64,000 bases of DNA from Spirochaetota bacterium (GTDB lineage: Bacteria; Spirochaetota; UBA4802; UBA5368): assembly GCA_035477215.1 (NCBI GenBank), contig DATIKU010000014.1, positions 62,001 through 126,000 of the forward strand, read 5' to 3'. Numbering within the stretch: the stretch's first letter is position 1; every line of letters begins with the position of its first letter. Below the pieces are notes generated by a model. The model saw nothing but the letters and a program-made list of their open reading frames with translations. It was not told the origin of the DNA and did not search any database. Made by a program: the position numbers and the translations under genes. Below, in pieces: positions 9,979-47,205 of the stretch.

Positions 9979-10188
9979 TGTACGGCACCCAAAGCGCCGC
10001 CCGAACTACCGGCTTTGCGCATAACCGGATATCCGTCGGCGGCAATGTTTAACATAGCGCAACGATGACAGCGGAACCGGCCCTCCTGAATGATGATGTT
10101 ACACGGCCGGAACGACTTTGTAACAGTAAACGGGGAGTTTTGGCAAGATAAAAAAACGGTTGCATTTGGTGCTTGTCGCGGGTAGTGT

Positions 10189-10217
10189 TTACCGGGGTCG
10201 GGCTCCGGCCCCGGTAA
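10189..10217 (+). promoter_or_regulatory. 9-bp perfect hairpin in the leader of the SpoIIE-type gene
   Basis: TTACCGGGG (10189-10197) and CCCCGGTAA (10209-10217) are perfect inverted repeats around an 11-base loop. The 3' arm runs into the ribosome-binding site AAGGGAAG (10216-10223) of the gene starting at 10235. The hairpin could limit translation, act as an attenuator or be a protein-binding palindrome. No poly-T tract follows, so it is not a typical terminator. Confidence 0.55.
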
Positions 10218-10234
10218 GGGAAGAAACATAACGA

Positions 10235-11377
10235 ATGGGTAACGAAGCATTCATCGACCGGTTCATGCGTTCCCTGGATTCACTGCGCGGCGTACTTTCC
10301 ATCGGCTGTCTCGACCTGATAGTGAAGGAAGATGGCGGCTATGTGTCAAAGTCCAAAAAGCTCTTTGATGAATCATTTCCGACCGTCGCTTTCGCGCGGA
10401 TGATCGATACAGGGGTTCTCGAAACGGCGAAAAGCTCGCCGGTCTTCGATTTGAAGCTCTCCGGCCCGGGGGGTGATGTTTTCTGCTCGCTGTTCCCGCT
10501 TTCCGGGGAGGGCGGTGACGGATATATCGTTATACAGGGAGACTCGCAGCTTGACCAGGTCGGGAAAGCCGTCGGGGCCTTTATGGCGGGCCTGCTTGCG
10601 GGGCAACCGGATGATTCAAAGGGACGTCCCGATACCGCGGGCGGAAAATACAGGGACGGCCTGCTCGGCATGCGTGAAATTCAGGCGAAGCTCTTTCCAC
10701 GCTTCGCCGGAGTGGATGGCCTCGACATCGCCTCGGTCTATCTGCCCGTGGAGCTCATGTCGGGGGACTTTATCGACGCCTTCTATCTCGACGAAAACCT
10801 CTATCAGATCACGGGCTGCGATGTGACGGGATATGACGCCGCTTCCTCGTACGCGGGGGCCGCGATGCGAACGCTCATCAAGTCGCTCTCATCGAAGAAG
10901 ATCGTTCCGTCGGCACTTATAGAGCTGACCGTATCAAAGCTCGACCGGATTCTGGAAGAGCTGCATTCCCTCGTCTACATGACCATTTTCCAGATAGAGC
11001 CGAAGACCGGGAAGGCACGGCTCTCATCCCTGGGCAGACTGAACACCATTCTGTATAAGGCGCAGAAGAAGGGTTTTATCGTCCTGAACAAGACGTCGAT
11101 AGGATACGATCTCGCTAAAAGGAACGTTTTCAAGGATATTTCGTTCGTTATCGAGCCTGGCGATATCCTGCTCTTTTATTCCAACGGCGTTTCAGAGGTC
11201 GCATCGGAAAACGGTAAAATGGCCTACGGTGAGAGCAGGATAGTGGAATGCCTGAATGAAAACCTCGGGGAGACATCGATGGATATCGTCCATGCGCTGA
11301 CCGAGTCACTGTCGGGATTCGCCAATCACTCCGGCTTCGATTACGATGTTCTGATTATCAGTATAAAGAAAACTTGA
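10235..11377 (+). CDS. SpoIIE/RsbU-type PP2C serine phosphatase
   Basis: 380 residues. The C-terminal half has the PP2C layout of SpoIIE/RsbU phosphatases: LMSGDFIDAF (about 175-184, the GGDxxD metal motif), CDVTGYDAASSYAGAAMR (about 196-213, the DVSGHG-like motif), GDILLFYSNGVSEV (about 309-322, the GD.lvLyTDGv.E motif) and a final FDYDVLIISI (metal-binding Asp). The N-terminal part (1-140) is an unrecognised sensor-like domain. Such enzymes dephosphorylate anti-sigma-factor antagonists in partner-switching cascades. No kinase or antagonist gene is adjacent. A hairpin overlaps the ribosome-binding site. Confidence 0.82.
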   Translation: MGNEAFIDRFMRSLDSLRGVLSIGCLDLIVKEDGGYVSKSKKLFDESFPTVAFARMIDTGVLETAKSSPVFDLKLSGPGGDVFCSLFPLSGEGGDGYIVIQGDSQLDQVGKAVGAFMAGLLAGQPDDSKGRPDTAGGKYRDGLLGMREIQAKLFPRFAGVDGLDIASVYLPVELMSGDFIDAFYLDENLYQITGCDVTGYDAASSYAGAAMRTLIKSLSSKKIVPSALIELTVSKLDRILEELHSLVYMTIFQIEPKTGKARLSSLGRLNTILYKAQKKGFIVLNKTSIGYDLAKRNVFKDISFVIEPGDILLFYSNGVSEVASENGKMAYGESRIVECLNENLGETSMDIVHALTESLSGFANHSGFDYDVLIISIKKT

Positions 11378-11449
11378 CAGACGGTTTTTATGCCGTGTGA
11401 TTGATTCTCCGTCCGAAAGACGACCAGCTTTTTTCCTGGGGGAGGACCA

Positions 11450-12292
11450 ATGAAGGCTTTTGCGATATTTCTTTTCAGGATCATCCCTACGGGGCTGCTT
11501 TCACGCTGTTTCGGTTACGCGGCGAGGCTTGCGCTACCATCCGTAATCCTGGTCCGGATAATTGTATGGTACTCGGCGAAATTCGGTGTTCGTACCGATG
11601 AGATGGTCTGTCCCGACGGCGGTTTCAGATGTCTCGAGGATTTTTTCACCAGGCGGCTCAAGCCGGGTGTGCATGTTGTTGACCGCGGGAAAAAATCGAT
11701 CGTATCCCCGGTCGACGCGCGGATCGACCATTTTGGCGCGATAGAGGGCGCAACGGTGTTCCAGGCCAAGGGCGTAGGCTACCGGCTCGGCGATCTCATC
11801 CCATCAGATTACCACAAGAATTTCATCAATGGCTCGTTTATCACACTTTACCTGTCCCCGGGCGACTACCACCGCATCCATTCGCCGGTGGGCGGCGAGG
11901 TGGCGGGATACTTCGCGCTGCCGGGAAAACTGCTTACGGTGCAGGAATACATGGTGCGCGGCCTGCCGGGTCTGTTCGCGAAGAACGAACGCCTGATCAG
12001 CTATATCCAGAGCGACGCCGGCATTGTGGCGGTCGTCAAGGTGGGGGCCATGAATGTCGGTCGTATCACCGTGACATACGATGGCGTTGAAACAAACCGG
12101 GCCTTCAGTCGCAGGGTGGAGCGCTTCTATCCGTCGGGGAAACGTCCGCTGATTGATAAAGGCGGTGAGCTGGGCGCTTTCCATCTCGGTTCAACCATCG
12201 TGCTGCTTTTCCAGAAGGACTCGATTAAAATGGATGCGTTCGCGGCTGGTGACCGGGTCCGGGTGGGAGAGCGGATCGCCGTGTTCCGGTAA
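11450..12292 (+). CDS. psd: Phosphatidylserine decarboxylase proenzyme
   Basis: 280 residues. Converts phosphatidylserine to phosphatidylethanolamine at the inner membrane with a pyruvoyl cofactor made by self-cleavage. The LGST cleavage motif (246-249, nucleophile Ser248) gives rise to the pyruvoyl group. The other members of the self-processing triad are Asp89 (SPVDA) and His144 (YHRIHSP), lining up with E. coli Asp90, His147 and Ser254. An N-terminal hydrophobic stretch (about 22-40) fits membrane association. ATG 11450 follows a GGGGGAGGA ribosome-binding site. It lies 72 bases after the phosphatase gene and 60 before the kinase-like gene. Confidence 0.95.
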   Translation: MKAFAIFLFRIIPTGLLSRCFGYAARLALPSVILVRIIVWYSAKFGVRTDEMVCPDGGFRCLEDFFTRRLKPGVHVVDRGKKSIVSPVDARIDHFGAIEGATVFQAKGVGYRLGDLIPSDYHKNFINGSFITLYLSPGDYHRIHSPVGGEVAGYFALPGKLLTVQEYMVRGLPGLFAKNERLISYIQSDAGIVAVVKVGAMNVGRITVTYDGVETNRAFSRRVERFYPSGKRPLIDKGGELGAFHLGSTIVLLFQKDSIKMDAFAAGDRVRVGERIAVFR

Positions 12293-12352
12293 CGGCAATT
12301 ATTTTGACGTTTCCGTGTCAAGCCCATATCTTTCAGTCCAGGAGGCGACGAT

Positions 12353-13087
12353 ATGGCCACCATGAGAACCTCATCGATAACGACGCATATCAATTCGCAG
12401 ATTGCGACCTGGCAGAAACAGCGGGAGAAGGTCGACCACGCCCCGAGGAAGGCCGTTCCGGTTCGGCCTTCGGGCCCGTTCGTAACCGTTTCGAGGGAAT
12501 ACGGGTGCGGCGGCTTTGATGTCGCCGAAAAGACGGCGGAGATAATCAATAAGGAGCGCCGGCCATCTCCGCTGTGGGTTGCTTATGACAGGGCAATCCT
12601 GGACGCGATGATGCAAGACCTTGGACTTAGCTCGAGCCTTCTCGAAACGCTCACTTCGCCGGCGCGCAAACAGATCGATAATTTTCTTCAAACGGCGCTC
12701 AGCGAGCTGCCACCGCAGGTGGTGGTGTACCGGAGTCTTGCCGAAACGGTACGTACGCTGGCGACCAACGGAAACGTCATCATCGTTGGAAGGGCGGGCC
12801 GAGCGATAACCCGGGGAATGGAGCGGGGATACCATGTACGGATAGTGGCCCCGCTCGAGTGGAGGGTCGAACGCATCGCCGGTCTTAGCGGCCTCACCCG
12901 CAAGGAAGCGGAAAAGATGATCCTCGAAAAAGGGCGCAGTCGCGAGGATTTCCTGCGGCGCTTCGTGAAATTTAAAAGCGGCGATCCGAGTGATTATCAT
13001 CTCGTCGTCAATAACGCGGAGCACGGCATGGACGGTGCCGCGCGTATGATAGTCGCCGGACTCTCGACAATGGGATGCTTGGACTGA
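12353..13087 (+). CDS. Cytidylate kinase-like family protein
   Basis: 244 residues. The segment FVTVSREYGCGGFDVAEKTA (about 43-62) is the P-loop-like GSGG region of the cytidylate-kinase-like family (AAK6/Cmk2 type). VIIVGRAGRAITRGM (about 142-156) and a helical lid with RVERIAGLSG and EDFLRRFVKF follow. The substrate is not certain: members are often annotated as cytidylate kinase without proof, and the ordinary P-loop GxxGxGKS is absent. The start has a good GGAGG site. It is followed seven bases later by the next gene, so the two are co-transcribed. Confidence 0.75.
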   Translation: MATMRTSSITTHINSQIATWQKQREKVDHAPRKAVPVRPSGPFVTVSREYGCGGFDVAEKTAEIINKERRPSPLWVAYDRAILDAMMQDLGLSSSLLETLTSPARKQIDNFLQTALSELPPQVVVYRSLAETVRTLATNGNVIIVGRAGRAITRGMERGYHVRIVAPLEWRVERIAGLSGLTRKEAEKMILEKGRSREDFLRRFVKFKSGDPSDYHLVVNNAEHGMDGAARMIVAGLSTMGCLD

Positions 13088-27730: not shown

Positions 27731-29455
27731 TCAGGGCAGGTCGTCGATACGGGCGCGGCAGGATGCAAGGTGCCGCTGGAGCTTGCGTGCCGCTGCGGCA
27801 ATGTCCGCAAAAAGGATGCCGGCACTTCTTTCGGCGGAAAGCTCCGCGTGCCTGGCGAGATAGGCGTTTGTCCGGCGAAGAAAAGGGCTGAAAAGCTCCG
27901 GCAGAGCCCTGGAAGCGGTATCGAGCAGTAGTTGTCGTTCCGCATCGGTAAATTCCCCGGCCGGTCTTGCCGCCAGAGAGGCCGCCGCCCCGGTTGCATC
28001 CAGCGCGTCCTCGAGCGCCGTACGCAGGGCCCGGGCGCTTCGCGCCCCAGGGGCCATGGAGCGGCGCAGTATTTCGACCGGCCCGGGGGTGCGCACGGGA
28101 AACTCATCGAGTAGCGACTCGAGCGGGCGCTCGACGGTGCCCGCGATGCGCGCGCCCTCCCCGCCGGCGTTTATTACGGGCACCGCGACTTTAAGGGCTG
28201 AATCCTCGAACCAGCTTCGATAGAGGTCGAACACGTAATCGGAGATGACGGTACCGCCTCCGCCGTACGCCTCGACATACTTGATCTTGCGTTTGCGGAT
28301 GACCCGCTGATTGATGCCGTCGAGATTGAGGAAGCGCGTTGTCCGGGTAAGCCACTCCCCGTTGTGATGGGTGCCGGTGCTGTGGATTTCCCTGCCGGTG
28401 TAGGCCAGGTCCTGACCCACCAGTACGATCGGGCTGCATCCGAGATTGAGCAGAAGATCGAAGGCGCTTGTGGCCACCGAACCGCCCGACTGAATGTCCC
28501 CCGGCGGCTCGATGTGGCGCTCGACCCAGTCCATCGCCGGGGTCGGTTCGCGTCGTACTCCGCCGTCGGGCCCATTGTAGTATTTCGCCGTGGTGCTGAA
28601 CATGATCTTTCCCTGATAAACGTCGGCAATGCGCGGGTAGCTCACCATGTCCGCAAGAAGCACCGTGCCGCCGGGGCGTTCGCCGAGAAAGTGTTTGATG
28701 CTGTGTTTCTGCGCGTCGATCGTCATGACGATGTGCGGCTCCACGCCGTGGCGGAGCAGCACCTTGAGGGCCGTATCAACCGAAACGATGAGGGCCCTGC
28801 CGCGGAGCCGTCCGAGCATGGAGGCGTTTTTCCGCAGCGAAGGGCCCGCGGACACTATTATGCCGGGAAATCCCGAAAATTTTCCAAACAGGTCCGCGAC
28901 CCTGCCCGCGTCGAAGCTTCGGGGGAGGTTCGCGAATATGTTAGCGATCCAGCGTTCCTCGAACTCGAAGCGCGTAAGAAGGTCCGAAAGCTTTGATGAA
29001 AAATAGCGGCTGATATCGGCGACCATCGAATCATAAAAGTCTTTGCCCAGCAGGTACGACGGACGATGGAAATAGACCGCCTTGCCGCGGAACATGTCGA
29101 TATCGAAGCTTTCGAGCAGGGAAGGGATGTCGCCGGGTGAGCCGATTATGTGCGCGCCTTCCAGGTTTGACGGGCACGAAGCCCGCGCGAGGCGGACGAC
29201 CTCCGGGTCTTTTTCGAGGGCTATGACGGCACGGTTCGGTAAACGGCTGCGCAGGGCCGCGACATGGTAGCCCAGGCCGAGTCCGCAAACGAGTATGGCG
29301 GTGGCCCTTCCGGGGTTAAACGCGGAGGCGGCGCGCTCCGCTTCGCGCACCGGATCGTAGGCGGAGTGGATCCTGATTTCAGGCGGGCCCGCGAAAACAA
29401 GGGTTTTGGATCCCGAAGGGGTGTCGTTGACTGTGAAGCGGCTCATGCGAGACAA
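27731..29455 (-). CDS. DUF115/MptE-like motility-associated (Maf) glycosyltransferase-family protein
   Basis: 574 residues of the DUF115 (6-hydroxymethylpterin pyrophosphokinase MptE-like) family, the Maf flagellin-glycosylation type. N-terminal Rossmann-like part: AILVCGLGLGYHVAALRSRL (about 53-72) and ALEKDPEVVRLA. The core contains GIIVSAGPSLRKNASMLGRL (about 193-212), ALIVSVDTALKVLLRHGVEP, MTIDAQ, and IVLVGQDLAYTGREIHSTGT (about 338-357). Maf proteins transfer nonulosonic sugars to flagellin, though in lineages without glycosylated flagellin the family may do something else. It begins 12 bases after the HDOD gene on the same strand, linking it to signalling or motility. Confidence 0.82.
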   Translation of the reverse strand: MSRMSRFTVNDTPSGSKTLVFAGPPEIRIHSAYDPVREAERAASAFNPGRATAILVCGLGLGYHVAALRSRLPNRAVIALEKDPEVVRLARASCPSNLEGAHIIGSPGDIPSLLESFDIDMFRGKAVYFHRPSYLLGKDFYDSMVADISRYFSSKLSDLLTRFEFEERWIANIFANLPRSFDAGRVADLFGKFSGFPGIIVSAGPSLRKNASMLGRLRGRALIVSVDTALKVLLRHGVEPHIVMTIDAQKHSIKHFLGERPGGTVLLADMVSYPRIADVYQGKIMFSTTAKYYNGPDGGVRREPTPAMDWVERHIEPPGDIQSGGSVATSAFDLLLNLGCSPIVLVGQDLAYTGREIHSTGTHHNGEWLTRTTRFLNLDGINQRVIRKRKIKYVEAYGGGGTVISDYVFDLYRSWFEDSALKVAVPVINAGGEGARIAGTVERPLESLLDEFPVRTPGPVEILRRSMAPGARSARALRTALEDALDATGAAASLAARPAGEFTDAERQLLLDTASRALPELFSPFLRRTNAYLARHAELSAERSAGILFADIAAAARKLQRHLASCRARIDDLP

Positions 29456-36039: not shown

Positions 36040-36492
36040 GGTCTTGTTCCCCTGGAGTCCGGTCGGTGGAAGGCGCCGCGAGACATGTGTCGTGTCATTC
36101 GGCGGACTACTAACATGGGAACGGGTGAGTTGTATTATTTGATAATATATTTATTGTATTATAATATAGACATATATTATTGGATGTAAAATATAAAATA
36201 ACAATAATTCATAAATCGTATAAATAAGAAAAAATAATAAATTATGGTGTATTAGAATTAAAAAAATATTGACTAAAATAATCATGGGGCTACGGTTGGC
36301 GGGTGATTTGGGCGTGAAGCGTAGCGATCACAAGGCCGCCCGTAAGGGTTCCATAGGCTCCGCTCTGGGTCTTGTCGGTTTGCGTACAGCCGTCCGCGGT
36401 GCTTAAGGGCCTGTCGTTTGCAACGGGTTGTAATAGAGGGCGGCGCTGTGCGCAACCGGCAGCGGAAATTCTATTACGTGGAGTGTTATGGT
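36040..36492. other. AT-rich divergent spacer upstream of hydrogenase cluster
   Basis: 453 bases without a gene. About 36125-36290 is by eye more than four fifths A+T, in sharp contrast to the GC-rich surroundings. TTGATA (36139) and TATAAT (36160-36165) lie there with a 15-base spacing, and TTGACT occurs at 36269. These may form promoters for the hydrogenase cluster, the DUF2294 gene or both, perhaps with sites for a nucleoid-binding silencer. The remaining 36291-36492 is GC-rich; I see no clear riboswitch in it. The open frame from 36418 precedes the chosen start of the first subunit. Confidence 0.6.
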
Positions 36493-38496
36493 ATGAATCA
36501 GAAACCTGGCGTGTGCACTTTCTGCGGGACGGGTTGCGGCCACTTCATCGGTACCGAAAACAACAGAATCACCCGGGTCTATCCCTCCCAGAACCATCCC
36601 ATAGGCAAAGGTCGATTATGCGTGCGGGGCTGGAACATCCACGAACTCCTCGATACGCCGGAACGAATAAAAAAACCGCTGGTGCGCGCGGACGGGGGCT
36701 TTAAGGAATCATCGTATGATGACGCGGTGGCGCGTCTGGTGGACACTCTAAAGAAATATCCTCCCGAATCGATCGGTTTTCTTGCATCGCCGCGCTCCTC
36801 GAACGAGGAACAGTATCTGTTGATGAAGCTCGCGCGCGCCGCGTTCAAAACGAACAACATCAGCCTCGATAGCGATTCCGGGCACCGGGCGAGCCTCAAC
36901 GTACTCCACACGGGAACGGGAATGGCGGGCATGCTCGGTTCGGTCGAAGAAATACGGAAGTCCGAATTTATCCTTGTGGCGGGGATCGACATCACCCGCC
37001 AGAATCCCATCATCGGAAGCGAGATCCACATGGCCGAGCGCGCCGGCGCCATGGTGGTGACCCTTGACAGCCGACGCACGCAGATTGCGAAGCTCTCGAA
37101 GAAATTTTTACAGGTAAAACCCGGCGCCAATAAACTGGCGATCCTCGCGCTCGCCAAAACCATTTACGATGAGAACCTCTCCGACGCCGCCTTTTTGCGC
37201 TCGCACACCGAGGGATTCGAAAAATTCCGCCACGCCTTCGGGCTTCTCCCCGACAACGAAGTGTCCGACAGGACCGGCATCCCGGCCGACGAAATCAAAG
37301 CCGTGGCCCGCGACCTCGCGAAAGCGAGGTCGGCGATGGTGTTTTTCGCATCCGGCATCTCCGGCCTCGACGAGGACACGATCGGCTATATTTACAACCT
37401 CTTCCTCATGGCCGGCAAGGTCGGAAAGGAAGGATGCGGCGTCAATCCCGTCGCGGGCCTGAATAACCTCCAGGGCGGGTACGACATGGGGCTCGCCCCC
37501 GATCTTCTTACCGGGTTCCAGCCGCTCGCCGACGTGGCGGCGAAGAAGTTCTCCGCGGAATGGAAGACCGACGTGCCGTCCTCGCCGGGCGCGCCCATTT
37601 ATGAAATGCTGTCGGACCGGTCATCGAAACTCAAAGCGCTTGTTGTGGTCGACCACGACGAAGGAATCGTTAGATACGCTGACGCCATCGGCAAGCTCGA
37701 TTTCATCGCCTATATCGGCGCCTTTAAAAACGCGTTCGCCGATTACGCGCATGTCGTGCTCCCAATAGCCACCTATGTGCAGGAGGACGCCACCTTTACC
37801 AACACCGAGCGCCGCATACAGTTTTCGATGAAGAAGATCGAGCCCGAGGACGGGCTGCTCCCCGGCTGGAAGCTCTATTCCATGATAGCCGGGAAGGCGG
37901 GCCAGTCCTGGAAGTACGCGAAGGTCTCCGACGTAATGGACGAGATCGCGCGGCTCACCCCCGCCTATGCCGGCGTTTCACACGCGAAGCTTTCGGGGGC
38001 GTTCGGGTTGCAGTGGCCTGTCGATGAAAAGAATCCGCGTGGAACCAAGCGGTTCGATGTCGCGAAAGCGGGCCGCAAGCTTTCCTTCTACAGGGTCAGC
38101 GATGTCTTCGAGATGCCGGCGGCGAAGGAACAGTTTCCCTTTCTGCTGATGGTCGGCAAGGCGCAGCATTTCTGGCACCAGAACAATCTCATGAAAAAGA
38201 CGCATATTCCCATGCGCGAATATAACGCGACGCTTTTGGACTACCCGGAAGGCTACGTCGAAATCTGCCCGCAAAGCGCGAAGGAGATCGGCGTGCGCGA
38301 CCACTGGCCGGTGCGCGTGGTATCGCCGCACGGCGAAATGCGGGTGTCGGCCAGGGTTTCGGACGACGTCAAGCCATACACCGCTTACGCGCCGTATTTC
38401 GTCCAGGAAATGATATCGCGCTTTTTGCTGGGACACACGGAGGTTCTCAGGCAGGGAGAAGACGCAACCATTCCAGTAAGGATTGAGAAGGTATGA
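36493..38496 (+). CDS. Molybdopterin-oxidoreductase (FdhF-like) subunit lacking catalytic Sec/Cys
   Basis: 667 residues from ATG 36493 (GTGGAG upstream). It has the formate-dehydrogenase alpha plan: an N-terminal [4Fe-4S] site CTFCGTGC (residues 8-15) plus Cys at GRLCVRG, an MGD-binding core, and a C-terminal domain with GKAQHFWHQNNL. Aligned by eye without gaps to E. coli FdhF (TNN ... 16 residues ... H), the Sec140 position is Gly130 (codon GGG at 36880), His141 is kept (His131), and Arg333 in VNPVRG is Ala321 (VNPVAG). It is therefore unlikely to be a normal formate dehydrogenase; it may be a NuoG-like electron-carrying scaffold. It overlaps the next gene by four bases. Confidence 0.85.
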   Translation: MNQKPGVCTFCGTGCGHFIGTENNRITRVYPSQNHPIGKGRLCVRGWNIHELLDTPERIKKPLVRADGGFKESSYDDAVARLVDTLKKYPPESIGFLASPRSSNEEQYLLMKLARAAFKTNNISLDSDSGHRASLNVLHTGTGMAGMLGSVEEIRKSEFILVAGIDITRQNPIIGSEIHMAERAGAMVVTLDSRRTQIAKLSKKFLQVKPGANKLAILALAKTIYDENLSDAAFLRSHTEGFEKFRHAFGLLPDNEVSDRTGIPADEIKAVARDLAKARSAMVFFASGISGLDEDTIGYIYNLFLMAGKVGKEGCGVNPVAGLNNLQGGYDMGLAPDLLTGFQPLADVAAKKFSAEWKTDVPSSPGAPIYEMLSDRSSKLKALVVVDHDEGIVRYADAIGKLDFIAYIGAFKNAFADYAHVVLPIATYVQEDATFTNTERRIQFSMKKIEPEDGLLPGWKLYSMIAGKAGQSWKYAKVSDVMDEIARLTPAYAGVSHAKLSGAFGLQWPVDEKNPRGTKRFDVAKAGRKLSFYRVSDVFEMPAAKEQFPFLLMVGKAQHFWHQNNLMKKTHIPMREYNATLLDYPEGYVEICPQSAKEIGVRDHWPVRVVSPHGEMRVSARVSDDVKPYTAYAPYFVQEMISRFLLGHTEVLRQGEDATIPVRIEKV

Positions 38497-39560
38497 CCAT
38501 GTTCCTTATCAAGAAAGCCGACGTCGGTAACATCGCACAGGAGCTCAGCCGGGAATACCAGATATATGGCCCCATGATCGAAAAGGGCTCGGGGCAGACC
38601 TTCTTCGACCGGGCACAGGACCTGGCTGAAATCAACCTCTCGGCCCCAATCCCGTCAAATCCGCCCAAGTCGGTCGTGTTTCCGCAGATGGAGCGCATCC
38701 TCTCGTATGAATATGACAGGGCGAAAAACGCGGTAAAGATGGAGCCCGATTACAAAATCGAACCCAGGGCGCTGGTGGGGCTTCGCCCCTGCGACCTGGC
38801 CGGCATACTCTGCCTGGACCGTTTCTTCATGGGGCAGGAATTCGTCGACGAGGTGTACCTGAACCATCGCAAGAAGATGTTCATCGTCACCAATACATGC
38901 GTCGCTCCTTTTAAACAATGCTTCTGCGTATGCACCGACAGCGGGCCCGCGGCGGGCGAGGGCTACGACCTCAACCTTACCGACCTCGGCAAGGAATGCC
39001 TGGTCGAGGTCGGCTCAGAAAAGGGGACGGCCCTGGCCGCGAAGCTCGCCCTCAAGCCGGCGAACGACTCCCACCTCGCGATGAAAAAGGAAAAGGTCGA
39101 CAAATCCATCGCGATGTTCGAGGGCATTGCCGTCGATTCCAAGGCGTGGATTTCGCGCGTCATGAACCGCGTCACCACCGGCTTCGTGAAGGAGGACGTG
39201 TGGGAGTATGTCGGCGACCAGTGTTTCGAGTGCGGCGCCTGTACCTTCGTGTGCCCTTCGTGCTCATGCTTCAACATCGCCGACGTAAACAACCCGGAGT
39301 GCGCCGGCTGCGCTGACCGGCTGCGCACATGGGACTCGTGCTCCTACGAAGGGTATTCGCGCATGGCGGGCGGCCACAATCCCCGCAAACCCGTTGAAGA
39401 CCGCCGCAACAAGAGGTTTTTCTGCAAGCTGTCATACTCGCAGATGAAGAAATATCTGCGGCCGGGCTGCGTAGGATGCGGCCGGTGCGCCTGGGTGTGC
39501 CCCGGCGATATCGGTCTGCCGAACGTCGTGACCTATGTCAGAAGGGAAATAACGAGGTAG
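38493..39560 (+). CDS. AsrA/sulfhydrogenase-beta-like 4Fe-4S protein
   Basis: 355 residues. The middle has RPCDLAGILCLDRFF, and the C-terminal part has two ferredoxin-type cluster motifs: ECGACTFVCPSCSCF (about 247-261) and GCVGCGRCAWVCPGDIGLPN (about 328-347), with more cysteines between (ECAGC, WDSC). This is the plan of anaerobic sulfite reductase subunit A and the beta subunit of soluble sulfhydrogenases. It passes electrons between the flavin subunit encoded next and the rest of the complex. The start overlaps the upstream stop (ATGA); the third codon ATG 38499 is an alternative. Confidence 0.85.
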   Translation: MTMFLIKKADVGNIAQELSREYQIYGPMIEKGSGQTFFDRAQDLAEINLSAPIPSNPPKSVVFPQMERILSYEYDRAKNAVKMEPDYKIEPRALVGLRPCDLAGILCLDRFFMGQEFVDEVYLNHRKKMFIVTNTCVAPFKQCFCVCTDSGPAAGEGYDLNLTDLGKECLVEVGSEKGTALAAKLALKPANDSHLAMKKEKVDKSIAMFEGIAVDSKAWISRVMNRVTTGFVKEDVWEYVGDQCFECGACTFVCPSCSCFNIADVNNPECAGCADRLRTWDSCSYEGYSRMAGGHNPRKPVEDRRNKRFFCKLSYSQMKKYLRPGCVGCGRCAWVCPGDIGLPNVVTYVRREITR

Positions 39561-39569
39561 GGGAAGCGT

Positions 39570-40421
39570 ATGAGCCAGGTATTGAACATCCAGAACGGAA
39601 AGATAGTCACCGTACCCGAGGTCGCCACGATCGAGGAGATCAGGGACGAGATTCGCGAGGTGAAGACCTTCTACCTTTCGATCGACAACAAGGAAATATG
39701 GAATAATTTCAAGTACAAGTCCGGGCAGTTCATCATGTGCACGATATTCGGCGCGGGCGAGTTCGCCGTGTCGCTGCCGCCCAGCCCCGAGAACGATCGC
39801 TTTCACATAACGGTGCGCACTGTCGGAAAGGTCACCAGCGCCCTCCACGGGCTGAAGCCCGGCGACAAGGTGGGCCTCCGCGGACCGTTTGGCAACGGCT
39901 TTCCCTTCGAGGAATTCAAGGGCAAGAACCTGGTTTACGTGGCGGGCGGCATCGGTCTTATCCCGCTCCGCTCGTCCATCGTCCACGCCCTTCAGCACAA
40001 GAAGGATTTCGGACGGGTGCTGGTGCTTCATGGCGCGCGCACGCCCGACGACCTCATGTATAAGGAGAACATCAAGGAGTGGCAGAGCTTCGAGGGTTTC
40101 GAGACCTATATAACGGTCGACGCGCCCACGCCGGACTGGAAGGGCGAGACGGGATTCGTTCACACCCTTTTCGACAAGGCGAACCTTCCCGTCGAGAACA
40201 CCATCGCATTCGTGTGCGGTCCGCCTGTCATGTTCAACACGGTGATCGGCGAGCTCCTGAAACGAGGCCTCCCGGACGAAAATATCTACTCGACGCTTGA
40301 GAGGCACATGAAATGCGGCATCGGCAAATGCCAGCACTGCGCCGTGGGAAGAACGCTTGTCTGTACGGACGGGCCGGTATACACCTACCGGCAGATAAAA
40401 ACCCTCGGCGAGGAGATATAG
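39570..40421 (+). CDS. AsrB/sulfhydrogenase-gamma-like FAD/NAD(P)-binding protein
   Basis: 283 residues of the ferredoxin-NADP reductase type. It has an FAD-binding barrel (about 25-120), an NAD(P)-binding part with YVAGGIGLIPLRSSI (about 125-139) and VCGPPVMFN (about 215), and a C-terminal [2Fe-2S] motif CGIGKCQHCAVGRTLVC (about 250-266). Such subunits link NAD(P)H to an iron-sulfur chain. Here it gives the hydrogenase a likely pyridine-nucleotide port. GGGGAAG precedes the ATG, nine bases after the previous gene. Confidence 0.9.
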   Translation: MSQVLNIQNGKIVTVPEVATIEEIRDEIREVKTFYLSIDNKEIWNNFKYKSGQFIMCTIFGAGEFAVSLPPSPENDRFHITVRTVGKVTSALHGLKPGDKVGLRGPFGNGFPFEEFKGKNLVYVAGGIGLIPLRSSIVHALQHKKDFGRVLVLHGARTPDDLMYKENIKEWQSFEGFETYITVDAPTPDWKGETGFVHTLFDKANLPVENTIAFVCGPPVMFNTVIGELLKRGLPDENIYSTLERHMKCGIGKCQHCAVGRTLVCTDGPVYTYRQIKTLGEEI

Positions 40422-40466: not shown

Positions 40467-40964
40467 ATGAGCATCGTCGATGACATACGAAAAGCACTTT
40501 CGGGCAGGGCCTGTATCGTGGGCATGGGAAACACACTGCTTGGAGACGACGGCGCGGGCGTGATTCTTGTCGAAGCTCTCCGGGCCGCCGGCGCGGGCGG
40601 GGCCCACCTGGTAAATGCCGAGGACATCATCGAGAGCCACGCCTTCGAGATCGCCGACGGAGACTGGGACAGGGTCATTGTGATCGACGCGGTGCGCTTC
40701 GGCGGCAGGCCCGGCGATGTGATGTTCGGAGCCTTCTCCGAGATCGGCGACCTCCTGAATGACTACTCGACCCACAAGCTTTCGCTGCGGCTTTCGGAAT
40801 CGATCTGGCGAGGGCGGGGCAAGGAAACCTATCTCCTCGGTATCGAGCCCGGGAACCTGAATTTCGGTGAGGGGCTTTCGCAGGCCGTAAAAATGAGCGC
40901 CGACACACTCTGTAAAATACTTGTTGGAGCAGTTAAACAGCACCCCGAAGGAGCATGTGTATGA
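40467..40964 (+). CDS. Hydrogenase maturation protease (HycI/HyaD family)
   Basis: 165 residues from ATG 40467 (GGAGAG upstream). It cleaves the C-terminal tail of the [NiFe]-hydrogenase large subunit after Ni insertion. Family features: ACIVGMGNTLLGDDGAGV (about 12-29), with the Asp/Glu Ni-sensing residues in GNxLxxDDG, a further Glu in NAEDIIESH (about 46), and VIVIDAVRFGGRPGD (about 63-77). The substrate is almost surely the large subunit encoded at 42.85 kb, whose C-terminal extension matches HycE-type pre-proteins. Its stop overlaps the next start (ATGA). Confidence 0.9.
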   Translation: MSIVDDIRKALSGRACIVGMGNTLLGDDGAGVILVEALRAAGAGGAHLVNAEDIIESHAFEIADGDWDRVIVIDAVRFGGRPGDVMFGAFSEIGDLLNDYSTHKLSLRLSESIWRGRGKETYLLGIEPGNLNFGEGLSQAVKMSADTLCKILVGAVKQHPEGACV

Positions 40965-42817
40965 GTGACCTTTATGGAAAACTGATTCTCGCGATGGCGA
41001 TACTTCTCTGTTCGGCGGTAGTTGTGCCCTTAATCGCCGAGAAGCGCAGGCTGGCGGGCTGGCTCAACTTCGTCTTTGTCGCCGTTGCGGGGGCCATCCT
41101 TCTTTCGATCAGCTACAGCGTCATCTTTGTGAACTCCCTCCAGGCGCAGCTCGTATCGGTGGGGCCGCTCGATATGTACTTTCTCCTGGACAGCTTCTCC
41201 GGGTTCTTCCTGGGGATCATCGCCCTCATGGCCATCGTCAGCGCCTTCTACTCGATCGAGTACATGGAGCACTACGACGATTACGGCCTGCGGAGCTACT
41301 ACGCGAATTACCCGATTTTCGTGCTGGGCATGGCGGGGATCGTCACCGTGGACGACCTCACCACCGGTTTCACCATCGCCTGGCAGGCTATGACCATCAC
41401 CAGCTATTTCCTGGTGCGATTCGAGCACCGGAAGCCCGAAATCGTCAGGGCCGCCAACAAGTACCTCATTCTCATGCAGCTTGCCTGGGTATTCATCGTC
41501 GTCGCGGCCTTCATCGCCGGCACCTCGATGGGAGATTCGATCCATGCCGTTACCCGCAGTCTGGGGAACACGCACGGCGCGGTTCCGTACATTGTCTACG
41601 GGCTCCTCTTCCTCGGCTTCGGCTTCAAGGCGGCGGTGTTCCCCTTCGGCCAGATGTGGCTGCCCGACGCGCACTCCATCGCCCCGTCTCCGATAAGCGC
41701 GCTCCTTTCGGGCGTGATGATAAAAACCGGCGTGTATGGGATAATCCGCACCTTCTTCTGGATGGTGCCGCACGCCGAGACCTTTCACTTCAGCGGCGCC
41801 TTCTGGGGCGTGCTCATCGCCTCCTTCGGGGTGGTGACGCTCTTTATCGGCACCGTGCAGTCCATGAAACAGAGCCATTCCAAGCGGCTGCTCGCTTATT
41901 CATCGATAGGGCAGGTCGGCTACATCATCCTCGGTATCGGCGCGGCGCTCTTCATGGTGAGCGCCGAAAGCGCGTCGCTTAAGATGCTCGGACTCATCGC
42001 CCTCGTCGGCGTAGTTTATCATATACTCAACCACGCGGTCTTCAAGGGACTGCTCTTTTTAACCAGCGGCAGCGTCCTCTACAGCACCGGGACCAAGGAC
42101 CTCAACAAGCTCGGCGGGCTCATCAACCTCATGCCGGTCACCGCGCTGGTTGCGGGCATTTCGTCCCTCTCGATCTCCGGTGTGCCGCCCTTCAGCGGGT
42201 TCGCGAGCAAGTGGACGCTGGTGTCGACTTCGCTTCTCGCCGGTAGCGAGGTGCTCTTCCTGGTGATCTTCGGAATCATCGCGCTCTTTACCAGCGCCGT
42301 GACGCTTTCATGCTACGTAAAATTTTTCGGTATGACCTTCACCTCGGCGGGCGCCGAGTGGGGAGTCGGCAAAAAGGTGAAGGAAGTGCCCGCGGGAATG
42401 CTCATCCCGAAGCTCTTCCTCGCGGCGCTCTGCCTGCTCCAGGGGCTCATCCCCTTCTTCTACTTTCAGACGATCATCGGCATTTTCGCGAATTCGGGAG
42501 GGTCGATGGTCTCGGCGGTGTTCAGGAACCTGAATGTCCAGGACCACGTCTTCAACTCGGCCATGGGCGTATCGGTGGGCATTCCGGGGCTTTCGTCGGT
42601 GTCGTCGATCGCGGTTCCGGCGGTTCTCCTGATAATCTTCGCGGCGGCGTTTGGCTTTGCCGCCGTGCTGAAGCGCGCGGGCGGATCGAAGGAGCGCGAG
42701 GTTCCCACCTGGCTCTGCGGCTACCAGGACCTGCACGACAAGACCAGGTACCGCGACAAGAGCATGTTCTCCGCGCTTAAAAACCTGCTGCATTGGACCG
42801 GCGGGAACGTAAAGTAA
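40961..42817 (+). CDS. HycC/NuoL-like antiporter-type membrane subunit
   Basis: About 618 residues with 14-16 hydrophobic helices, in the Mrp/NuoL/HycC proton-conducting family. The conserved core is intact: FGFKAAVFPFGQMWLPDAHS (about 224-243, with the buried Lys), PSPISALLSGVMIKTGVYG (about 246-264), SKRLLAYSSIGQVGYIILG and NHAVFKGLLFL. The complex can therefore be expected to pump protons or Na+. The start at ATG 40961 has GAAGGAG at 7 bases and overlaps the protease stop; ATG 40955 is too close to that site. Only one such antiporter-like subunit is encoded, as in E. coli Hyc (FHL-1), not Hyf. Confidence 0.9.
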   Translation: MSDLYGKLILAMAILLCSAVVVPLIAEKRRLAGWLNFVFVAVAGAILLSISYSVIFVNSLQAQLVSVGPLDMYFLLDSFSGFFLGIIALMAIVSAFYSIEYMEHYDDYGLRSYYANYPIFVLGMAGIVTVDDLTTGFTIAWQAMTITSYFLVRFEHRKPEIVRAANKYLILMQLAWVFIVVAAFIAGTSMGDSIHAVTRSLGNTHGAVPYIVYGLLFLGFGFKAAVFPFGQMWLPDAHSIAPSPISALLSGVMIKTGVYGIIRTFFWMVPHAETFHFSGAFWGVLIASFGVVTLFIGTVQSMKQSHSKRLLAYSSIGQVGYIILGIGAALFMVSAESASLKMLGLIALVGVVYHILNHAVFKGLLFLTSGSVLYSTGTKDLNKLGGLINLMPVTALVAGISSLSISGVPPFSGFASKWTLVSTSLLAGSEVLFLVIFGIIALFTSAVTLSCYVKFFGMTFTSAGAEWGVGKKVKEVPAGMLIPKLFLAALCLLQGLIPFFYFQTIIGIFANSGGSMVSAVFRNLNVQDHVFNSAMGVSVGIPGLSSVSSIAVPAVLLIIFAAAFGFAAVLKRAGGSKEREVPTWLCGYQDLHDKTRYRDKSMFSALKNLLHWTGGNVK

Positions 42818-42851: not shown

Positions 42852-44525
42852 ATGCCAGGGATTGAAGAGATCAAAAGCGGTTTAAATAAAAAGTTCAAGA
42901 ATGCCGTCGTCGCCGTTGAGGAGCAAAACCCGACGAGGCTGTTCGTGGATATAAAAAGCGCAAAGGTGCGCGAGATTTCAAACGAGATCATCGCCATGGG
43001 CGGGCGCTACCTTGTGAGCATCGGTTGCGACAATATCAGCCGCGACGGGACGCTGGGCATGATCCACACCTTCGGCTTCGACAAGGACGGTATTTTTTTG
43101 TCCCTGCGCACCTCGGTCCCCGAATCGAAGCCCGTGATGGATTCCATCACGCCGGACATCCCCAACGCCGGATGGTCCGAGCGCGAATTCATGGATCTCC
43201 TGGGCATGAAGTTCACCGGGCACCCCAAGCCCAAACGGCTCATCCTCGCCGACGACTGGCCCGAAGGCGTGCATCCGCTCCGAAAGGACATCCCCTGGAA
43301 CCTCATGCCGCCGGCCGCCGAGGACGTGGCCTATCAGCTCGACGAGTGCCCCGAGGGGTGCAGCATCGTCCCGGTAGGCCCCTATCACCCCACGCTGCAC
43401 GAGCCGGCGCACTTTGCCGTATTCGTGGACGGGGAGACCATAAAGGGTAGCGATTACCGGGGCTTCATGACGCACCGCGGCATAGAGAAGCTCTGCCAGA
43501 CGCAGCTTACGTATAACGAGATACCCTTTGTTGCCGAGCGCATCTGCGGTATCTGCGGCTCGGTGCACGCCACTTCCTATTCGCAGGCCGTGGAGCTGGC
43601 CGGCGGTATAAAGATATCGCGCAGGGCCGAGTACATCCGCACCATCATGCTCGAGATCGAGAGGGTTCACTCGCACCTCCTGTGGCTCGGGGTCGCCGGT
43701 CACCTCATCGGTTTCGACACGGTGTTCATGCAGTCGTGGCGCATACGCGAGCCCATCATGTGGCTGGGCGAGCGCATCACCGGCAACAGGAAGACTTACG
43801 GCATGATCGTCATCGGCGGCGTACGCCGGGACATCACCCCCGAAATAAAAGAAGACATACTGAATGTGATAGGCAAGGTGGAGGAGGAGCTCCTCGTCGT
43901 CCAGAAGGCCATACAGGGCGACTCGGCCATCCACAGAAGGACCAAGGGCGTCGGCTATGTTTCAACCGCCGACACGGTGCTCTGGAGCCTGGTCGGGCCC
44001 GTTGCTCGAGCAAGGAACGTCGATATCGACGTACGGCGCGACTATCCGTACGCCGCGTACGACGAAATGAAGTTCGACGTGCCGGTCTTCGATTCCAACG
44101 ATGTATGGGCTACACTGCTGGTGCGCCTGCTGGAGACCTTCGAATCGATCAAGATAATACGGCAGTGCCTCGATAAAATGCCGAACGACGGTCCGATACT
44201 CACCGAGCTCGAGGCGCCGATCCCGGCCCTTAAGCATGGCCTGGCAGCCGTCGAGGCGCCCCGCGGCGAAGTGGTGCACTATGTCATCACCGGCGAGAAA
44301 AACGCCCCGGAGCGCTGGCGCGTGCGCGCCCCGACGTATCCGAATCTCCAGGGCGTGCCGCTCATGCTTCTGGGCAACCAGCTCGCCGATGTGCCGATCA
44401 TCATCGGGAGCATCGATCCGTGCTTTTCATGCACTGACCGGATGGAGATAGTGGACCTGCGATCGGGCGCCGCGAAAACGGCCTCCCGGCGCGAGCTTGA
44501 AGAGCTTTCACGGAATAAACGATAG
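42852..44525 (+). CDS. Group 4 [NiFe]-hydrogenase large subunit (NuoCD/HycE-like)
   Basis: 557 residues. The N-terminal 170 are a NuoC-type domain (WSEREFMDLLGMKFTGHPKP). The rest is the catalytic NuoD/HycE-type domain. Both pairs of Ni ligands are present: ERICGICGSVH (about 229-239, CxxC) and DPCFSCTDR (about 522-530, CxxC), so it is a real hydrogenase, not a complex I NuoD. The residues after DPCFSCTDR give about 28 C-terminal amino acids, probably removed by the HycI-type protease two genes upstream. The start follows GAGGTG. The reaction is reversible proton reduction at the cytoplasmic side of the membrane. Confidence 0.94.
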   Translation: MPGIEEIKSGLNKKFKNAVVAVEEQNPTRLFVDIKSAKVREISNEIIAMGGRYLVSIGCDNISRDGTLGMIHTFGFDKDGIFLSLRTSVPESKPVMDSITPDIPNAGWSEREFMDLLGMKFTGHPKPKRLILADDWPEGVHPLRKDIPWNLMPPAAEDVAYQLDECPEGCSIVPVGPYHPTLHEPAHFAVFVDGETIKGSDYRGFMTHRGIEKLCQTQLTYNEIPFVAERICGICGSVHATSYSQAVELAGGIKISRRAEYIRTIMLEIERVHSHLLWLGVAGHLIGFDTVFMQSWRIREPIMWLGERITGNRKTYGMIVIGGVRRDITPEIKEDILNVIGKVEEELLVVQKAIQGDSAIHRRTKGVGYVSTADTVLWSLVGPVARARNVDIDVRRDYPYAAYDEMKFDVPVFDSNDVWATLLVRLLETFESIKIIRQCLDKMPNDGPILTELEAPIPALKHGLAAVEAPRGEVVHYVITGEKNAPERWRVRAPTYPNLQGVPLMLLGNQLADVPIIIGSIDPCFSCTDRMEIVDLRSGAAKTASRRELEELSRNKR

Positions 44526-44535
44526 AGGAAAGCGT

Positions 44536-45435
44536 ATGGACATCCTGATAGCCGTGATCAACGTATTGATTTTCCTGGCGCTCGCCCCGCTCTTCGAGGG
44601 CGTTGTGCGAAAGCTCTATGCCAAGGTGCAGTCCCGCATGGGCCCGCCGATCTTCCAGCCTTATTACGATCTCCTGAAGCTTCTGGGCAAAGAGACGCTT
44701 TCGGCCGGCAACTGGGCGTTCAGAATCGCGCCCATGATGGCGCTCGCGTCAATTATAACGGCGGTGTCGCTTATGCCGCTCGGCTACACTCCCGGGTTCC
44801 TCACGCAGTACGGGGACATCATCACCATCATCTATCTTCTTGCGCTTGGCGGGGTGTCGGTGCTGTTGGGGGCGCTTTCCAGTAAAAACACCTATGCCAT
44901 GGTGGGGGCGAGCCGGGAGATGGTCACCATGATCATGGTGGAGCCGGTGCTCGCCATGACCCTCATCCTTGGCGCGCTCAAGGCGAAGAGCCTCGCTATC
45001 GACGCCAGTATAGCGAGTTCGCTCGGCGGGTCCTACGGGTTCTCGATGGTGCTTATGCTCGTCGTCTTCCTGATGGCGCTCCAGGCCTTCGTGGCCAGAC
45101 AGCCCTTCGACATCGCAGAGGCCGAGGTCGAGATAATGGAAGGGCCCTTCATCGAGTACAGCGGCCCCGGGCTCGCCCTCTTCAAGTACTATATGATGAT
45201 CAAGCAGATGTTCTACGCGGCGCTGTTCGTTGCGGTGTTTGTGCCGCTCGTCTATACGGGGTATTTCTTCGTCGATGTGGCGGTTCAGCTTGTCGGGATA
45301 CTGGTGGTCTTCGTGCTCATCGCCCTGCTCGGCTCGACCAATCCGAGGCTGCGCATCGACCAGGCGGTGAAGTATTACGCGATATTGATCGCCGCATCGC
45401 TCGTGGCCGTCGGGTTGTCGGTATATGGAATATAG
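44536..45435 (+). CDS. HycD/NuoH-like membrane subunit
   Basis: 299 residues from ATG 44536 (AGAGGAAAG upstream); the frame is open to 44497 but that overlaps the large subunit. It has eight hydrophobic helices. Hallmarks of the NuoH/HycD family: RMGPPIFQPYYDLLKLLGKE (about 35-54) and AEVEIMEGPFIEYSGPGLAL (about 196-215), which bind near the quinone-like or proton path. It anchors the hydrophilic arm of the hydrogenase to the membrane. It begins eight bases after the large-subunit stop, and is followed by an unusual gap with two hairpins. Confidence 0.92.
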   Translation: MDILIAVINVLIFLALAPLFEGVVRKLYAKVQSRMGPPIFQPYYDLLKLLGKETLSAGNWAFRIAPMMALASIITAVSLMPLGYTPGFLTQYGDIITIIYLLALGGVSVLLGALSSKNTYAMVGASREMVTMIMVEPVLAMTLILGALKAKSLAIDASIASSLGGSYGFSMVLMLVVFLMALQAFVARQPFDIAEAEVEIMEGPFIEYSGPGLALFKYYMMIKQMFYAALFVAVFVPLVYTGYFFVDVAVQLVGILVVFVLIALLGSTNPRLRIDQAVKYYAILIAASLVAVGLSVYGI

Positions 45436-45536: not shown

Positions 45537-45601
45537 GGGCCGGAGGGCGGGGGATTTGATTATGCAGGTCGGTTTAAATCTTGAACCCAAGGAGAAACAC
45601 C

Positions 45602-46147
45602 GTGTGGCTGACAAGTAAGATAAAGCAGGTTTTCATGGTGGCAAAACCCGGCGTGGTGACGCTCCGGTATCCGTTCGAGCCGCGCCCGGCTCCAGCGAAT
45701 TTCAGGGGGCAGCCATACTGGGATCACCACAAGTGCATAGGCTGTGGCGGGTGCGCGGCGCACTGCCCGGCGCGCACGATACTGGTGCGTGACCTCTGTC
45801 AGGAGCTTCGGGTCATGTTATATGACGGGTCGCGCTGCACCTACTGCGCGCGCTGCGCCGACGTGTGCCCCGAGGACGCCATCACCATGACCGAGAGCTT
45901 TGAACTTGCGACCGGAGACAAGGAAGATATCAACGAAACCATGGAGCTGTTCATGGCCACTTGTCAGCGCTGCGGGCGCTGTTACGACCACGAGACAACA
46001 AACGTGATCGACCGCATGTCGAGAATCGGCTTCAAGTATGACAGCATCGAGATGAGGGCCGTGGTGCCGGTTGGCTCCGAGCAGTTCGATATGAAACTGT
46101 ACGAAAAGACCGAAAAAATCAAAAGGCCGGAAAAGGCGGGAGAGTAG
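45602..46147 (+). CDS. HycF/NuoI-like polyferredoxin subunit
   Basis: 181 residues from GTG 45602, preceded by AAGGAGA; the upstream TTG 45581 lacks a site. Two classical [4Fe-4S] motifs are present: CIGCGGCAAHCP (about 46-57) and CTYCARCADVCPEDA (about 80-94). A third, shortened Cys set, CQRCGRCYD, lies near 122-130, not usual in NuoI. The opening FEPRPAPANFRGQPYWDHHK is the typical NuoI/HycF N terminus. It carries electrons from the AsrA-like part toward the small subunit. Confidence 0.9.
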   Translation: MWLTSKIKQVFMVAKPGVVTLRYPFEPRPAPANFRGQPYWDHHKCIGCGGCAAHCPARTILVRDLCQELRVMLYDGSRCTYCARCADVCPEDAITMTESFELATGDKEDINETMELFMATCQRCGRCYDHETTNVIDRMSRIGFKYDSIEMRAVVPVGSEQFDMKLYEKTEKIKRPEKAGE

Positions 46148-46149
46148 CC

Positions 46150-46680
46150 ATGCTTGCTAATCTGATCAAAAAGGCGTTCCTAAAATCGCTGTGGGTGTAT
46201 CACTGCAATGCGGGGGCGTGTAACGGCTGCGACATCGAGATCCTGAACGTCCTCACTCCCTATTACGATATCGAACGGTTCGGCATGAAGCTCGTGGCCT
46301 CTCCCCGGCACGCCGACGTGATGCTGATTTCCGGCGCGGTGACGAGGCCCACGCTTCCCATCGTCAAGAAGGCGTATAACGCCATGCCCTCGCCCAAGCT
46401 GGTCTTCGGCATTGGTTCGTGCGCCGTGGGCGGCGGCTGCTGGTTCGACTGCTACAATGTAACCGGCGGTGCGGACAAGGCCGTTCCCGTCAACTACTAC
46501 ATTCCCGGCTGCCCGCCGCGCCCCGAGGCGATCATTTACGGCGTTGCCCTCGCGCTGGGCCTGGTCGAGAAGAAGGTCGCGCCAATAGAGCTCAAACAGA
46601 TGGAGTTCCCGATCGATATGTACGAGCGCAACAAGGCCTGGGAAGAGCGAAACGTAATTTACAAATTAATTAAAGATTAG
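46150..46680 (+). CDS. Group 4 hydrogenase small subunit (HycG/NuoB-like)
   Basis: 176 residues. It holds the proximal [4Fe-4S] cluster next to the NiFe site: CNAGACNGCD (19-28), GIGSCAVGGGCWFDC (about 93-107) and GCPPRPEAI (about 123-131). The absence of the second and third clusters of soluble small subunits is normal for group 4 enzymes. It starts two bases after the ferredoxin stop and ends the structural set of nine genes. Confidence 0.93.
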   Translation: MLANLIKKAFLKSLWVYHCNAGACNGCDIEILNVLTPYYDIERFGMKLVASPRHADVMLISGAVTRPTLPIVKKAYNAMPSPKLVFGIGSCAVGGGCWFDCYNVTGGADKAVPVNYYIPGCPPRPEAIIYGVALALGLVEKKVAPIELKQMEFPIDMYERNKAWEERNVIYKLIKD

Positions 46681-46803: not shown

Positions 46804-47205
46804 ATGGCAAAGAAGATACTTTTAGTGGACGACGACAGCGACCTGGTGGCGAGCCTTTCGCAGGCGCTTATGATGAATGGTTACGACGTATCCATAGCCA
46901 ATAGCGGGGCCGAAGGCCTTGTGAAGCTCCTCGAGGTGCGGCCGGACCTCATGATACTCGACGTTATGATGGAAACCGACACGGCAGGTTTTGAGATAAC
47001 CTATCAGATTCGAAGCCAGAGACCGACCTCCAGGTACAAGGATGTCAGGGAGACGCCCATCGTCATGCTGACGGCGATCAACCAGGTCACCAACTCCAGG
47101 TTCTCGCTTAGCGAGGGGCAGAGTTTTCTTCCCGGCGTCAATGATTTCCTCACCAAGCCGGTCAAAATTGACGAACTCCTGGGAAAAGTGAAAAAGTTAC
47201 TATAG
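46804..47205 (+). CDS. Single-domain response regulator (CheY-like)
   Basis: 133 residues from ATG 46804. Receiver domain only: KKILLVDDDSDLVASLSQAL (3-22, acidic pocket), phospho-acceptor in PDLMILDVMM (about 47-56, Asp53), and FLTKPVKIDELLGKVKKLL (Lys near the end). A short insert (SRYKDVRETP) sits between strands 3 and 4. No output domain is present. It lies 123 bases downstream of the hydrogenase small subunit and may be co-transcribed, but the kinase partner is not in the window. Confidence 0.85.
   Translation: MAKKILLVDDDSDLVASLSQALMMNGYDVSIANSGAEGLVKLLEVRPDLMILDVMMETDTAGFEITYQIRSQRPTSRYKDVRETPIVMLTAINQVTNSRFSLSEGQSFLPGVNDFLTKPVKIDELLGKVKKLL

Follow-up and report, generated by a model that had tools for sequence, protein, structure and literature searches.

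FdhL, a 667-residue relative of formate dehydrogenase (FDH) from a Spirochaetota bacterium, is probably a molybdopterin-free descendant of the FDHs that has a structural role, with one [4Fe-4S] cluster, in a group 4 hydrogenase of the proton-pumping type that appears to use NAD(P)H. It is encoded by the first gene of an operon that extends from position 36493 to about 47205 of the window (the 64,000 nucleotides of DNA that we analyzed). The operon has the order FdhL–HydB–HydG–HycI–HyfB–HycE–HycD–HycF–HycG–response regulator (Table 1). An earlier note on this DNA had described FdhL, but it made no link to the downstream group 4 [NiFe]-hydrogenase operon.

Table 1. Genes of the FdhL operon and key codons of FdhL, in coordinates of the window.
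Feature	Position	Strand	Remarks
FdhL, FDH-fold subunit, 667 aa	36493..38496	+	Gly at Mo-ligand position; [4Fe-4S] Cys intact
GGG codon, Gly130 (FdhF Sec140 position)	36880..36882	+	
His131 codon	36883-36885	+	directly after Gly130
GCG codon, Ala321 in VNPVAG (FdhF Arg333 position)	37453..37455	+	
HydB/AsrA-like Fe-S protein that connects the flavin subunit to the hydrogenase	38493..39560	+	three clade-specific extra Cys
HydG/AsrB-like subunit with FAD, NAD(P) and [2Fe-2S]	39570..40421	+	predicted NAD(P)H electron entry
HycI-type hydrogenase maturation protease	40467..40964	+	start uncertain, ORF from 40449
HyfB/HycC antiporter-like membrane subunit	40955..42817	+	
HycE-like fused NuoC-NuoD large subunit	42852..44525	+	ICGIC (Cys232/235), DPCFSC (Cys524/527)
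HycD/NuoH-like membrane subunit	44536..45435	+	ATG at 44536, ORF from 44497
HycF/NuoI-like ferredoxin subunit	45581..46147	+	additional CxxC motif
HycG/NuoB-like small subunit	46150..46680	+	
Single-domain response regulator	46804..47205	+	last operon gene

We aligned FdhL to FdhF from E. coli K-12 (NC_000913) and to FdhL's own relatives. The earlier note had claimed that the Mo ligand of FdhF (Sec140) corresponds to Gly130, that His141 is kept as His131, that Arg333 is replaced by Ala, and that the N-terminal [4Fe-4S] cysteines are intact. All of this is correct: the segment from TNN to the ligand position aligns to FdhF with no gap, the codon for Gly130 is GGG and not TGA, Arg333 aligns to Ala321, and the cysteines are at positions 8, 11, 15 and 43. 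The note was also right that the spacing is the same in both proteins, but the fixed spacing is TNN-x7-ligand-His, rather than 16 residues from TNN to H(x)G. FdhF and 56 other active FDHs all share this spacing, so the alignment is secure, and we ruled out a misalignment. A hidden UGA or a wrong frame is ruled out as well, by the GGG codon and by the presence of Gly in 34 proteins.

FdhL has also lost residues that the earlier note did not mention. The catalytic Lys44 of FdhF, which lies beside the cluster in FDHs, is replaced by Arg45. Other losses (in FdhF numbering) are Gln335, which is Leu; Asp134, Cys136 and Arg138; Asn176, which is Asp; His181, which is Asn; Glu403, which is His388 of FdhL; and His655, which is Phe636 of FdhL. 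In other words, the fold and the [4Fe-4S] motif of an FDH are present, while the Cys or Sec ligand for Mo or W, Arg333 and Lys44 are absent. FdhL's score against the NCBIfam model for FdhF-type FDHs (TIGR01591) is 438.8, which is below the cut-off of 666.25.

These losses are shared by FdhL's orthologs. Among 296 genomes from the same phylum (Spirochaetota), 32 have an ortholog of FdhL (at least 52% identity). A scan of a genome collection added some Rhodocyclaceae, among them Rhodocyclus purpureus DSM 168, as well as a "delta proteobacterium" MAG, and a search in the phylum of that MAG found one further carrier. Because FdhL is present in just 3 of 250 sampled genomes of Rhodocyclaceae, and because the seed genome alone carries it among 399 Pseudomonadota, FdhL is rare outside of the Spirochaetota. 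In a quick IQ-TREE analysis, the FdhL clade forms one side of a branch with an SH-aLRT of 100 and a long stem.

Gly occupies the ligand position in all 34 full-length orthologs and in one fragment; none has the Cys or Ser that the earlier note had regarded as evidence against its reading. The earlier note had also suggested checking if both Gly and Ala are conserved in this branch. Gly is, but Ala is not: in the same 34 proteins and the fragment, the position of Arg333 is Ala, Thr, Ser or Val, and never Arg. Lys44 is replaced by Arg in every full-length ortholog, His141 is kept in all orthologs but one (which has Gln), and the four [4Fe-4S] cysteines are invariant across 34 sequences. In contrast, 57 active FDHs have Cys (35 proteins) or Sec (22 proteins) as the ligand, always with the His and the Arg. 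More broadly, we considered the 111 alignment columns in which active FDHs are invariant to 95% or more. Of these, the FdhL clade keeps 44, including all of the Fe-S cysteines, and has almost completely lost another 38, which are scattered over the active site and the cofactor domains (including 134, 136, 138, 176, 181, 302, 335, 403, 429, 478 and 655). Since the ligand, the Arg and the Lys are gone from all full-length orthologs, we agree with the earlier note that FdhL does not oxidize formate in the usual way.

The loss of catalytic residues, along with a deletion of 27 residues in the copies from Rhodocyclaceae, might be taken to mean that FdhL is a decaying pseudogene or an assembly error. 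This is refuted by several lines of evidence, and we give it virtually no credence. First, the reading frame is open in all full-length copies, and 110 columns are near-invariant within the clade. Second, comparisons to four congeneric genomes give dN/dS of 0.06-0.08 (NG86), which is similar to the values for HydB and HycE, so FdhL is under purifying selection. Third, FdhL and HycE strictly co-occur: a search for HycE at 66% identity or above matched the very same 32 genomes of Spirochaetota that carry FdhL, and the next homologs of HycE are at most 50% identical. FdhL is the fastest-evolving structural subunit of the operon, because its identity between the window and the Rhodocyclaceae is low (41-44%, as compared to 60-61% for HydB, 71-74% for HydG, 66-67% for HycE and 79-85% for HycG). 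The identity of the HycI protease is lower still.

The earlier note also suggested that FdhL might catalyze a different Mo- or W-dependent reaction, and the metal site vacated by Gly could be open to one. The FDH fold is intact, and most carriers of FdhL encode genes for the molybdenum cofactor (Moco): of 37 carriers, 32 have MoaC and 29 have MoeA. In carriers with such genes, a cofactor in FdhL is conceivable. However, we did not find MoaA, MoaC or MoeA in G147 (97% complete) or in G163 (98% complete, in 20 contigs). These are draft genomes from two genera of one family of Spirochaetota (f44), and both contain the complete ten-gene operon (loci L153 and L154). FdhL is the sole molybdopterin-family protein in G147, and G163 has just one other match, a NuoG-like ORF. 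Because these genomes have the operon but not the three genes, FdhL probably functions without Mo- or W-bisPGD in them, unless all three genes are accidentally missing from two independent assemblies. Furthermore, FdhL has lost residues of the cofactor domains as well as of the active site (the positions of Lys44, Asn176, His181, Gln335, Glu403, Asp429, Asp478 and His655). We therefore consider another Mo or W reaction to be very improbable.

The window's genome encodes two other members of the molybdopterin family. Contig C34 (L134 = C34:70000-89900; 9751-12828) encodes an FdnG-type FDH with one in-frame TGA, followed by His, and with the Arg intact, so the organism probably uses selenocysteine. 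With this Sec-containing enzyme encoded elsewhere in the genome, formate can be handled by an enzyme other than FdhL. Contig C8 (L135 = C8:25000-44900, about 9628-11604) encodes a protein of about 650 amino acids with a twin-arginine-like N terminus, which by eye looks like the Moco-free QrcB. Thus, two of the genome's three molybdopterin-family members look cofactor-free, as judged from their sequences.

The rest of the operon indicates what FdhL works with. It encodes NuoB-, NuoC-, NuoD-, NuoH- and NuoI-like subunits, an antiporter-like subunit and a maturation protease, as expected for a group 4 [NiFe]-hydrogenase (Hyc/Hyf). HycE carries both CxxC motifs for the Ni/Fe ligands. Hyp maturation is present too, with HypD in all 37 carriers of FdhL that were tested. 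HydB and HydG resemble the input module of the sulfhydrogenases and AsrAB, by their domains (PF00175, PF00970, PF10418 and PF17179) and by their DHODB-type Fe-S and HydB clusters, although their scores are below the family-specific NCBIfam cut-offs. Other Spirochaetota and the Rhodocyclaceae have the ten genes in this order; two Desulfobacterota-like genomes have them rearranged, with HycD before FdhL and no HyfB after the protease. The gene order and the co-occurrence suggest that FdhL and the hydrogenase form a stoichiometric complex.

We noticed several other features of this region. Wherever a copy of the operon extends far enough, a single-domain response regulator lies 3' of HycG, across phyla (L034-L037, L039, L042-L046, L153 and L154). 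Relative to FDH-linked HydB, the HydB of this operon has three conserved extra cysteines, one of which replaces the invariant His of "HKL" (giving FFCKLS). These suggest a changed or added Fe-S site, and perhaps they remodel the electron path. Upstream of the operon, an AT-rich stretch at 36130-36280, within GC-rich surroundings, is perhaps regulatory. Farther upstream, the reverse strand (27731-29455) encodes a large protein with a 6-hydroxymethylpterin diphosphokinase MptE-like domain (PF01973).

The mechanism that we infer covers how the subunits form a complex, how electrons move, how this is coupled to ions and how FdhL acts as a scaffold. NADH or NADPH would reduce the FAD and [2Fe-2S] cluster of HydG. 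Electrons would then most likely pass through the clusters of HydB to HycF, HycG and the Ni-Fe site in HycE, and the path would be reversible. HyfB and HycD are predicted to couple electron transfer to ion movement, in either direction. FdhL would attach HydB and HydG to the arm that carries the hydrogenase, and its cluster would probably be a side branch that is needed for stability, as are N7 of NuoG and C1/C2 of StnC. We favor this scaffold role for FdhL, with the cluster as a side branch, because the clusters of these two proteins are off the electron path and yet are needed for stability or assembly. Specifically, N7 in NuoG, which is equivalent to FdhL's cluster, only stabilizes the complex (PMC5123574, PMC9474812). 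In StnC, both the inactive FdhF domain and its clusters are off the path, but the complex does not assemble without them (PMC10482914).

Alternatively, FdhL's cluster could be on the path and relay electrons from HydB to HycF. FdhL's four cysteines are invariant in 34 sequences, which is stricter than for N7, since some NuoG proteins do not conserve that cluster. In formate hydrogenlyase from E. coli, cluster A1 of FdhF is on the path from Mo to HycB, and FdhF touches HycF (PMC9474812). But FdhL has a single cluster, which in FDHs accepts electrons from Mo and is a terminus rather than a through-station, and in both of the characterized Moco-free homologs (NuoG and StnC) the cluster is off the path. 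An on-path relay is conceivable, but we think it is rather unlikely. The earlier note had proposed that FdhL might be an electron conduit "as NuoG is". The comparison to NuoG holds up, but the term conduit is imprecise, because N7 is off the path and because FdhL lacks the N-terminal domain that conducts electrons in NuoG.

FdhL and the C-terminal domain of NuoG (also known as Nqo3 or NDUFS1) have much in common: an FDH fold that is Moco-free in NuoG and probably also in FdhL, a [4Fe-4S] cluster at the FS0-type position, and a place in the module that brings in electrons from NAD(P)H, on a membrane arm of the complex I family. However, FdhL does not have NuoG's N-terminal ferredoxin-like (conducting) domain and instead begins at the Fe-S domain of FDH. 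Also, FdhL pairs with HydB and HydG and works with a [NiFe]-hydrogenase, while NuoG pairs with NuoEF and works with a quinone reductase. We rejected the idea that FdhL is a branch of NuoG: FdhL is 19.3% identical to NuoG, which is no closer than active FDHs (20.0%), and its scores as a NuoG are far lower. With the NuoG profile (TIGR01973), the score of 127.6 is below the cut-off of 470. The two proteins do have five derived states in common (K44R, N176D, T300S, L332I and R333A), but 5 of 38 may be due to chance among conservative changes.

We also compared FdhL and its operon to other known systems. As proposed for FdhL, StnC of the Stn transhydrogenase (8oh5) and NfnC (9bov) keep an inactive FdhF domain for assembly, with [4Fe-4S] clusters off the path (PMC10482914). 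In these proteins, the domain is fused to others of the GltD and ferredoxin types, and the complex is soluble and bifurcating, with no hydrogenase. E. coli FHL-1 (FdhF-HycBCDEFG) and the FdhL operon each combine a subunit of the FdhF fold with a group 4 hydrogenase of the Hyc type, which has HycD and a single antiporter-like subunit; in FHL-1, FdhF is catalytic, there are no NAD(P) subunits, and HycB takes the place of HydB. A group 4 hydrogenase cluster from Saganbacteria RX5A appears similar from its description (PMC6349859), in which we found no mention of the ligand residues or of a loss of the active site. It includes an "unclassifiable" oxidoreductase, as do its relatives from Zixibacteria and Omnitrophica. 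We discarded the hyf-like clusters of Nitrospira and Acidithiobacillus as precedents because their descriptions mention no FdhL-HydB-HydG arrangement, and according to HydDB, the cluster from A. ferrooxidans has no hydrogenase catalytic subunit. Our literature search found nothing relevant about the hydrogenases of Rhodocyclus.

An AlphaFold model of FdhL (based on an alignment of 30 sequences) has a pLDDT of 86.8 and a pTM of 0.90. Its top hits from Foldseek are FDHs, with TM-scores of 0.86-0.90 (0.86-0.89 for R. aestuarii FDH, ForCE1 and FdhF, 1aa6), and NuoG from complex I and NfnABC rank below them. The model thus indicates that FdhL has kept the FDH fold. The segments with pLDDT under 50 are 557-564, 573-576 and 636-641.

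We identified 25 positions, including His388 and Tyr407, with residues that are invariant in the FdhL clade and absent from active FDHs. Some of these overlap or adjoin the low-pLDDT segments (Q563, N564, N565, M567, P573, Y577, Y635 and F636). By sequence, this region seems to correspond to the C-terminal pterin-binding or cap region of FDHs; in the FDH of R. capsulatus, the cap loop contacts both MGDs (PMC7171172). Because clade-specific invariant residues fall in the former pterin-binding or cap region, the pocket is not merely decayed; something new is conserved there. One explanation is that the pocket has become a binding site, for a nucleotide, a small molecule or a loop of a partner, which would gate or regulate the hydrogenase. 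The clade-specific residues (including His388, Tyr407, QNN-M at 563-567, Pro573, Tyr577 and Phe636) fit this idea, several are in stretches with pLDDT below 50, as expected if a ligand or a partner orders them, and GDP has been reported in a cofactor-free NarGH (PMC5123574). But an interface between proteins would give the same pattern of residues, and we consider a new binding site to be unlikely.

To understand where FdhL came from, we inspected the closest active FDHs, with about 10 kb on either side (about 20 kb was read). Five of these (L122, L123, L127, L129 and L130) adjoin HydB- and HydG-like genes, so they form the same three-subunit module, but unlike FdhL, their Cys or Sec, His and Arg are all intact. 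We did not find a group 4 hydrogenase within the roughly 20 kb around these genes. The simplest history is that a three-subunit, NAD(P)+-linked FDH (FdhF-HydB-HydG) was recruited by a Hyc-type hydrogenase and that catalysis was lost afterwards. As a more specific and only tentative proposal, the NAD(P)-linked FDH may have been grafted onto an arm of the complex I family, with the cofactor lost and the pocket then rebuilt for a new job in the hydrogenase. In the Rhodocyclaceae, the 27 deleted residues follow the DMG motif and are approximately the segment that is missing from NuoG. Because the identity to NuoG (19.3%) does not exceed that of active FDHs (20.0%), this likeness is convergent.

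In the openly accessible literature that we searched, we found no account of a group 4 hydrogenase that contains an FDH subunit without Moco. According to one paper, NuoG is unique among subunits of the molybdopterin family in having lost the cofactor (PMC5123574), and the route by which complex I acquired an FDH-like subunit is still debated (PMC9474812). The FdhL clade would be an independent replay, on a hydrogenase, of the history of NuoG in complex I. It offers graded erosion, from full-length proteins in Spirochaetota to proteins in Rhodocyclaceae from which roughly the stretch absent in NuoG is missing, along with carriers that have no detectable Moco pathway and active FdhF-HydB-HydG relatives. 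One carrier, Rhodocyclus purpureus DSM 168, is a named strain from a culture collection. Our results also correct the annotation of this operon, which could be read as a formate hydrogenlyase and would wrongly predict formate metabolism.
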